Source: Betaproteobacteria bacterium (GTDB lineage Bacteria > Pseudomonadota > Gammaproteobacteria > Burkholderiales > Thiobacillaceae). Taken from it: 49,810 nt of DNA. This document shows positions 1,276-5,500 of this stretch, piece by piece. The notes beneath the pieces were generated by a model. That model was not told where the DNA came from and did no database searches. It saw only the letters and a list, made by a program, of their open reading frames with translations. Every line of letters starts with the position of its first letter. Within the stretch, counting starts at the first letter, position 1. Made by a program: the position numbers and the translations under genes. The stretch spans positions 1 through 49,810 of the forward strand of contig JAGUXX010000094.1 in assembly GCA_020061585.1 (NCBI GenBank), written 5' to 3'.

Positions 1276-2631
1276 TCAGGGATACGTTGATTGATGCGTC
1301 GTGAGCGCAGTCAGCTTTCCAGATTGCTTTCTCATGCCGCTGAAAATCGCTTCAGCCACATCCATGGGGAAGTCGTCCGGCAACTCCTTCTCGACCGCGC
1401 CGATCACGCTTTCCGTGGCGACGATCACTTCCTCAATCAAGCGCTCAGCCGCTACAGCCCCGAGGCCGACTTGTTGCGCCTGGGCTATCCAGTGCCTTCG
1501 CTGGATCTTGTCGATCAGGTAATGGTTGCTGCTCCCCCGTACCGCCATGGCAAGTTTGGCCTTTTGCGGTGGAGTCCGGTTTCTTCCCGTTCCGATGACG
1601 GGATGGGCGGACAGCACATCGTAGATGGGGGTGGCGCGGTAGCGGCCGCCCGGGAGCAGGGCGAGGCTGAAGTTTTTCCCATGACCATCGGTGGCGGCCA
1701 GCAGCCAGAAGATGATCTGGGTTTTGAAGAAGGTGTCCCTGTCCTGGGCCGCATTGTCCGAGCCGAGCAGCAATTCCATGATGCGGGCAATGCTCGGGCC
1801 GCCATCCGCCTGATATTTGAGCAGGGGCGATGTTCCCGTTGCCTGGCACATGTCCTCCTGAGGCAGGCGAACGATCCAGCTTCCATCACTGGCCGGGGCA
1901 CGGTCGAAGCGTTCGACCACCAGGGCTTTCTGCTCCTCGAAATGCGCGATTTCGCACGGCGCGATGCGGATGTCGTAAGCCGCCATGATCTTCGAACACA
2001 ACCATTCGTTCTCGACCGAGGTGCGCATATCGGCCTGCATGTGGCCGACCAGTCCGAGCGGTAGTTTGAAGATGTGCGTGGTGGGGGTGCTGCCATGAGG
2101 CAGAAGCCATTGCCCCCCATGGCGCAACAGGGCGGTTTTCTCCTGCGCGCCGGCGATGGAAAGCCTCAGGTCCTCATCGTCGCCACGCTGCCCCAACGCC
2201 TGTGTAAATGTGACATTGCGCAGTCGTTGGGCGATCCCGGCGGCATCCATTGCCTTGCCACGGATTTCATATATATCAGCTGGCGTTTCATCCTCGGGGA
2301 GGAGCTGTATCGCACCCACACAGTCCCGTCCCAGTTTCGCCAGCAGGCGAAAGGCATCCATGCCCCCAGTCTGGTAACGCTGCGCCAGACGACGGCGGAT
2401 GGCATCGTTGTCAGGCAGCAGGTTGTCGAAATAGTCGGTCACGATCTGTCCCTGGTAAGGCGCATTGCCCGGCAAGAAGGGCAGCGATAACGACAATGGG
2501 CGGGACTGCTCATCGGCAAGCCATGCATCGAAATAGCCGAGCCGTTCGCCTTGCCGGGTGGTTTCCCAGTAGCCGACCGGGAGGCCGTTCATCCAGATGT
2601 TCAGCCTTTGTGTCTGTCTGCGGCGTCCCAT
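1276..2631 (-). CDS. hipA: HipA-type serine/threonine kinase toxin
   Basis: This 451-residue protein matches full-length HipA. An N-terminal subdomain (about 1-110) is followed by the kinase. Visible motifs are LSIAGAQEKTALL, with Ser158 at the place of the autophosphorylated P-loop serine of E. coli HipA, ATDGHGKNFSL with catalytic Asp315 and Asn320, and PIYDVLSA with metal-binding Asp338. HipA of E. coli phosphorylates GltX and induces growth arrest; the target here is inferred only by homology. It starts 2 bp after the hipB stop, so the two are co-transcribed, with the antitoxin first as usual. Nothing suggests inactivation: all catalytic residues are present. Confidence 0.95.
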   Translation of the reverse strand: MGRRRQTQRLNIWMNGLPVGYWETTRQGERLGYFDAWLADEQSRPLSLSLPFLPGNAPYQGQIVTDYFDNLLPDNDAIRRRLAQRYQTGGMDAFRLLAKLGRDCVGAIQLLPEDETPADIYEIRGKAMDAAGIAQRLRNVTFTQALGQRGDDEDLRLSIAGAQEKTALLRHGGQWLLPHGSTPTTHIFKLPLGLVGHMQADMRTSVENEWLCSKIMAAYDIRIAPCEIAHFEEQKALVVERFDRAPASDGSWIVRLPQEDMCQATGTSPLLKYQADGGPSIARIMELLLGSDNAAQDRDTFFKTQIIFWLLAATDGHGKNFSLALLPGGRYRATPIYDVLSAHPVIGTGRNRTPPQKAKLAMAVRGSSNHYLIDKIQRRHWIAQAQQVGLGAVAAERLIEEVIVATESVIGAVEKELPDDFPMDVAEAIFSGMRKQSGKLTALTTHQSTYP

Positions 2632-2633
2632 GC

Positions 2634-2933
2634 TTACCAGCTTTCCTTTTTTCTGGTCGGACCAGTGAGCTTGTCGATGGTTTGGCTGGCGGGTGCGTTC
2701 ACCTCGCTGATGGCTGACCCAGTCTGATCCAGCGAAATGTCGACATTCAGCAGACGCAGTACCAGGAAAAGCCGTTCCAGCGTCGCAGTCGCCGGATTGG
2801 CTTCAAAGTAGGCATAGCTTTGCTGGGTGATACCCAGCTTCTCTGCCATGGCCGCCTGGGTCAGTCCTTTCTCCTTGCGGAACCCCTTCAGGACCAGAGG
2901 GAGCTGGCTGAGCGTTTTGATGGGGTAGATCAC
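2634..2933 (-). CDS. hipB: HipB-type antitoxin, XRE-family repressor
   Basis: A 99-residue protein with an XRE helix-turn-helix at about residues 10-68 (FRKEKGLTQAAMAEKLGITQ, then a recognition segment ending FEANP). The start is a GTG at 2933, chosen because a strong GGAGG lies 5 nt upstream and no in-frame ATG precedes the domain. HipB neutralises HipA and represses the operon. The C-terminal tail (about 70-99) is polar and probably flexible. The upstream DNA carries a regular series of TGTA/TACA half-sites (separate entry), which are the likely binding sites. It lies 2 bp upstream of hipA. Confidence 0.93.
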   Translation of the reverse strand: MIYPIKTLSQLPLVLKGFRKEKGLTQAAMAEKLGITQQSYAYFEANPATATLERLFLVLRLLNVDISLDQTGSAISEVNAPASQTIDKLTGPTRKKESW

Positions 2934-2963: not shown

Positions 2964-3062
2964 TACAGGCCTCGGACTGTAAATTAATTTAACAGTCCTG
3001 TGTTTGTATCTTATGTTTACAGAGCATATTTTGTAATTAATATTTACAAACTTGAGTCTGTA
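2964..3062 (-). promoter_or_regulatory. hipBA operator array: TGTA-N9-TACA sites at 27-bp spacing
   Basis: AT-rich upstream region of hipB. Left half-sites TGTA begin at 2978, 3005, 3032 and 3059; right half-sites TACA (or AACA) begin at 2964, 2991, 3018 and 3045. They pair as three 17-bp dyads, 2978-2994, 3005-3021 and 3032-3048, with centres exactly 27 bp apart, plus a lone half-site at each end in phase. The first lies in a larger perfect dyad (arms GGACTGT/ACAGTCC, 2974-2998), the third in TTTGTAA/TTACAAA (3030-3050). E. coli HipB also uses several phased operators but a different sequence (TATCC-N8-GGATA). Assignment to HipB is inferred from position. I could not place a convincing -35/-10 pair. 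Confidence 0.75.
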
Positions 3063-3087
3063 TTTATTCCCTGTTGTCCCCAGCGAG

Positions 3088-3200
3088 CGTAGCCCGAATG
3101 GAGCAACGCAAAATCTGGGACTTTTGACTTGAACGTGCGCGCTGGCGCTGAGCGTTGCGCTGAACCCCCCGGATTCCGCTGCGCTGCATCCGGGCTACGG
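3088..3200. repeat. REP-like divergent inverted repeat pair
   Basis: The arm at 3088-3120 (begins CGTAGCCCGAATGGAGC) and the reverse complement of 3167-3200 (CCGTAGCCCGGATGCAGCGC) are imperfect copies of one another, separated by about 46 bp. The motif GTAGCCCGGATG...CAGCG...ATCCGGG is a common intergenic palindromic repeat type in proteobacterial genomes (from memory, not searched). The left copy is more degenerate. It lies between hipBA and thiC. Confidence 0.6.
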
Positions 3201-3205
3201 GTGCT

Positions 3206-3400: not shown

Positions 3401-5500
<2,100 letters not shown>

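Follow-up and report, generated by a model that had tools for sequence, protein, structure and literature searches.

An evenly spaced array of four putative HipB operators with a TACA half-site upstream of hipBA in a member of the Thiobacillaceae

The hipBA operon of Escherichia coli K-12 has four operators (O1-O4) of 18 bp each, with the sequence TATCC-N8-GGATA and spacings of 28, 39 and 28 bp. HipB binds the four cooperatively, with HipA as corepressor, and the operator is bent by about 70 degrees (PMC3920265). On an O1O2 duplex with the 28-bp spacing, the Kd of HipB is 0.6 nM; the C-terminal tail of the protein controls its degradation, and the C-terminal tryptophan has been called universally conserved (PMC3376134). 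Disturbed dimerisation of HipA in promoter complexes has been proposed as the effect of the HipA7 substitution G22S (PMC7029023). Operator layout is relevant to the strength of hipBA repression, and hence to persistence. In Shewanella oneidensis, a HipB dimer together with HipA on operator DNA was reportedly described by Wen in 2014.

The DNA analysed here, a window of 49,810 nucleotides from a bacterium of the Thiobacillaceae, carries a HipBA type II toxin-antitoxin system, in which the gene of an HTH antitoxin immediately precedes that of a full-length HipA kinase (Table 1). The solved structures closest to the antitoxin are those of E. coli HipB (35% identity over 69 aa), and HipA matches the E. 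coli HipA structures with an E of about 1e-96. HipA keeps the loop SIAGAQEKTA at 158 (the Ser aligned to E. coli Ser150) and the catalytic Asp motif DGHGKN at 315, and HipB ends in KKESW and so has the terminal Trp. HipB is nevertheless a homologue outside the E. coli-type NCBIfam equivalog NF007271: its score is 43.9 bits where the curated cut-off is 79, and across 274 genomes of the class every HipB falls short of that cut-off. In HipA, Gly22 is kept and E. coli positions 86 and 88 are changed (Pro to Ala and Asp to Arg, respectively); given these two changes, the HipA-HipA contact surface may differ from that of E. coli. Among the HipB homologues L013-L044, the C-terminal tail that links the HTH domain to the last Trp varies widely in length, the whole proteins having about 99 to 133 aa. 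Of 22 other genomes in the genus, only two have close homologues of hipB; the operon thus has a patchy distribution and may be mobile.

Upstream of hipBA is a block of 99 bp (positions 2964-3062) that four 18-bp TACA-N10-TGTA dyads, 27 bp apart, tile exactly, with zero leftover half-sites (centres at about 2972.5, 2999.5, 3026.5 and 3053.5). A search of the 4.59-Mb genome for the pattern, allowing up to two mismatches, gave matches only in this block, and no RNA family was found to overlap the array. The array is genuine, far above chance expectation, and single in the genome. The sequence comparisons described below favour reading it as the autorepression operator array of the hipBA operon, four 18-bp HipB operators with a specificity of their own, at a probability of roughly 0.9.

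Table 1. Positions of the hipBA genes, the operator dyads and the putative promoter hexamers in the window
Feature	Position	Strand	Description
hipA	1276..2631	-	451-aa full-length HipA kinase toxin; PF07804 and PF13657
hipB	2634..2933	-	99-aa HTH antitoxin; PF01381, E=6.7e-13; recognition helix GITQQSYAYFEA; C-terminal Trp
operator 4 (hipB-proximal)	2964..2981	-	TACAGTCCGAGGCCTGTA; full dyad; in presumed 5' untranslated region
operator 3	2991..3008	-	TACAAACACAGGACTGTT; imperfect half TGTT; overlaps -10 edge and presumed transcription start
putative -10 TAAGAT	3008..3013	-	inferred; 18-base spacer; homologues have TAATAT, TATAAT, TAAAAT or TAGAAT at this position
operator 2	3018..3035	-	TACAAAATATGCTCTGTA; full dyad; between putative promoter -35 and -10
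putative -35 ATTACA	3032..3037	-	inferred; TTTACA in homologues
operator 1 (hipB-distal)	3045..3062	-	TACAGACTCAAGTTTGTA; full TACA-N10-TGTA dyad; putative HipB site

Two other elements lie nearby. An ordinary TPP riboswitch (RF00059, 72 bits) is found at 5366-5469 on the minus strand, upstream of thiC. The thiC coding sequence probably begins at the internal ATG (MNAALPK) and not at the GTG that lies within the riboswitch. Positions 3078-3205, in the interval separating thiC from the hipB operators, hold an interspersed palindromic repeat with ends resembling the arms AGCCCGAAT and ATCCGGGCT. Counting full and partial copies, this repeat has 30 matches genome-wide, with a core of about 31 bp that often occurs in inverted pairs, and it resembles a REP or MITE-type element.

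The array can be followed in relatives. Homologues of hipB at close and intermediate distance were collected, and the DNA upstream of them was compared in 29 non-redundant regions. TACA-N10-TGTA is present in 28 of the 29, as 60 exact pairs, and most regions have four such sites 27 bp apart. Operator 2 is the best conserved in the 28 regions, and operator 4 is also conserved. Operator 1 is absent or degraded in a few loci (L022, L031, L032 and L037), and the imperfect half of operator 3 is TGTT in most Betaproteobacteria and TGTA in Gallionella-type loci. The preliminary description of this locus had tied the array to hipBA and proposed the upstream regions of relatives as a check; nearly every close relative retrieved indeed has the array ahead of hipB, and its phase is retained across Betaproteobacteria.

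The same regions point to a promoter. The best promoter-like pair has a -35 that begins two bases before operator 2 in 22 of the 28 homologous regions, and its -10 sits 16 or 18 bases beyond, just before operator 3. A consensus scan of the block itself gave plus-strand matches only, as palindromic arrays can give, and the minus-strand promoter was located through the homologues. Because the hexamers fall at 3037-3032 and 3013-3008, operator 2 is placed between them, and operator 3 overlaps the -10 at its edge together with the presumed transcription start. A conserved promoter thus appears to be embedded in the array, its putative -35 and -10 flanking operator 2, and inverted-repeat units of 18 bp lie over it in several copies, as expected of a HipB operator array. 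One HipB dimer would occupy each operator, laid over the promoter. HipB alone or HipB2HipA2 along the array, perhaps cooperatively and with HipA bridging neighbouring dimers, would shut the promoter, and a drop in HipB (by a protease, as in E. coli) would empty the sites and allow the operon to be transcribed again.

A wider scan took in further hipB upstream regions from the order and class; the half-site and the length of the unit were left free, and any spacing from 20 to 45 bp was allowed. Arrays that beat all shuffles were found in 64 of 78 non-redundant regions, with a few spurious calls (L032 and L106), and the other 14 had no significant array by the shuffle test. Three or four copies are usual, and 139 of 152 inter-unit spacings are 26-28 bp. 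The best unit is of even length in 55 of the 64 significant arrays, mostly 16, 18 or 20 bp with the same centre. Relatives in the same genus whose HipB helix reads SQ(K/N)R (L007, L008 and L010) have 17-bp units every 26 bp, with a gap of 9 bp; since their period shortens with the unit, the 9-10 bp between units is nearly constant. HipA-HipA contacts are reported in the promoter complexes of E. coli, and a fixed spacing fits them; by this analogy, the 26-28 bp most likely reflects contacts between complexes on adjacent operators. Phasing near 27 bp is general, and the 39-bp middle gap of E. coli is unusual in the sample compared. The regular spacing is a property of hipBA operons at large and nothing peculiar to the Thiobacillaceae array. 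An earlier suggestion that neighbouring dimers would sit on nearly opposite faces of the helix, perhaps in a wrapped complex, presumes straight B-DNA, in contrast to the operator bend of about 70 degrees reported for HipB (PMC3920265); E. coli, moreover, has almost this spacing itself (28 bp).

The half-site varies much more than the spacing. The variants among hipBA operons include TACA(G/A), TATCC, TATAC, TACCC, TACAC, TATCG and TACTC. Once the rest of HipB is taken into account, half-site and recognition helix still covary (partial Mantel r=0.35, p=0.0005). All 35 of the 35 loci with Gln as helix residue 3 have C at half-site position 3, versus 3 of 24 without Gln (p=4e-13, kinship ignored); counted by distinct helices, again with kinship ignored, the figures are 15/15 versus 2/21. 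Where residue 1 is Lys, position 4 is C in 8/9 cases, versus 5/50 without Lys (kinship ignored). The half-site of L043 was put in register by hand for these counts, and exceptions to the pairing are L050, L008/L010, L061 and L062. Single steps are seen between near neighbours, with helix residues KQA and half-site TATCC in L058, KQQ and TACCC in L048, TQK and TATAC in L055, and TQQ and TACA in the HipB of this locus.

In that protein the recognition helix GITQQSYAYFEA has Thr36, Gln37 and Gln38, and the half-site is TACA(G/A), with which Thr36 and Gln38 agree. Because the half-site changes with the helix across families, HipB itself is supported as the reader of the array, and the relatives suggest which amino acids read the half-site. 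The half-site here would differ from that of E. coli since Thr36 and Gln38 of the helix stand in the places of Lys38 and Ala40 of E. coli HipB. A specificity distinct from that of E. coli HipB, as first proposed from the motif, is well supported by this covariation.

The block can also be read in a second register, with TGTA-N9-AACA at 2978-2994 and TGTA-N9-TACA at 3005-3021 and 3032-3048 (centres 2986, 3013 and 3040), and with TACA at 2964-2967 and TGTA at 3059-3062 extending the 27-bp phase at the edges. This was the reading of the preliminary description, and the three 17-bp dyads and in-phase edges are present in the sequence as described. HipB bound to these dyads, with spare half-sites at both ends, would be on exact dyads at a 27-bp phase whose inner bases are more palindromic (0.5-0.67) than the operator N10 (about 0.3); we read this palindromicity as coming from conserved A/T flanks outside each operator. 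Two conserved half-sites are left unexplained in this register, whereas both belong to complete N10 operators, which number four in total. The registers part where the arrays vary. In two Pseudoduganella loci (L045 and L046) the spacing is 27/30/27 and the gap between units goes from 9 to 12, so that N9 turns into N12 while N10 is kept in all four operators. The 18-bp unit is likewise unbroken in other relatives with altered spacing (27/23 and 28/27 as well as 27/30/27), and in the unevenly spaced arrays (L045, L046, L047, L048, L049, L075, L095 and L098) the best-scoring units are all centred according to the 18-bp register. Because the Pseudoduganella arrays keep N10 while their spacing shifts, and because the E. 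coli operators are also 18 bp, the 18-bp dyad is taken as the unit. The TGTA-N9-TACA register, which lacks the invariant spacing, was dropped, and it is now improbable. As a layout, 27/30/27 stands midway between the even arrays and the paired 28/39/28 of E. coli.

Two further explanations dispense with HipB. The region is AT-rich and carries promoter-like hexamers, as would be expected of an ordinary promoter with chance palindromes and no protein array. Yet three in-phase dyad copies arose in 0 of 20,000 simulated sequences (first-order Markov, same composition), which bears out the earlier claim that the regularity is improbable by chance. In a relaxed model (any 4-bp half-site, gap 5-14, period 20-45), three units arose in 1 of 3,000 sequences and four in 0 of 3,000. 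Conservation of the phase across many genera refutes a chance origin, to which hardly any weight can be given. The other explanation is that a different regulator, either a global binder of AT-rich DNA or another HTH repressor, binds the array, and that the adjacency to hipBA is fortuitous. TGTA/TACA half-sites are common among HTH repressors, and the AT-richness fits such a regulator too. Against this, the array accompanies hipB in many genomes and is single in the Thiobacillaceae genome, and the half-site shifts with the recognition helix of HipB across families; a different regulator is very unlikely.

If HipB is the reader of 18-bp operators, a broader rule may be entertained tentatively, although the odds are somewhat against it as a whole. 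The operators of HipB in Pseudomonadota would follow a readable code, in which helix residue 3 (E. coli 40) sets base 3 (C for Gln, mostly T for Ala, Ser or Lys) and base 4 depends on residue 1 (E. coli 38; C for Lys, mostly A for Thr, Ser or Arg). The frame of 18-bp units with a period of 26-28 bp would be fixed by HipA-mediated contacts, and in uninterrupted arrays a HipA-HipB complex could assemble continuously over all operators, in contrast to the two pairs suggested by the 28/39/28 of E. coli. No precedent for a general 26-28 bp rule or a two-residue code was found in the literature searched, outside of which lie key subscription papers. Under such a rule, two amino acids could predict the operators of a HipB and whether hipBA systems that share a cell might cross-talk. 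The rule is testable, and directly so by the natural near-neighbour swaps (KQA/TATCC, KQQ/TACCC, TQK/TATAC and TQQ/TACA).

Compared with E. coli K-12, the array of this locus has the same kind of 18-bp dyads with an outer TA, in four copies upstream of a homologous hipB (35%) that is followed by a full-length hipA, and a spacing of 27 bp where E. coli has 28 bp within pairs. The two differ in the half-site (TATCC in E. coli, TACA(G/A) here) and in the layout (28/39/28 versus a uniform 27). Other hipBA operons likewise depart from TATCC, so this half-site does not define the wider family. In Caulobacter crescentus, hipBA1 and hipBA2 have serial inverted repeats at intervals that the authors find consistent with the E. 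coli HipBA-promoter assembly; these are putative sites, known from sequence (PMC7029023). The hipBST system of Legionella pneumophila likewise has 18-nt inverted-repeat operators (O1-O3), bound by HipB in gel shifts, and it differs in its 53-bp gaps, six-base repeats, conserved inner sequence and three genes (PMC10653801). Arrays of HipB operators were thus already known from E. coli, noted in Caulobacter and, in another form, shown in Legionella hipBST; the present array is a variant, set apart by its half-site and its even spacing of 27 bp.
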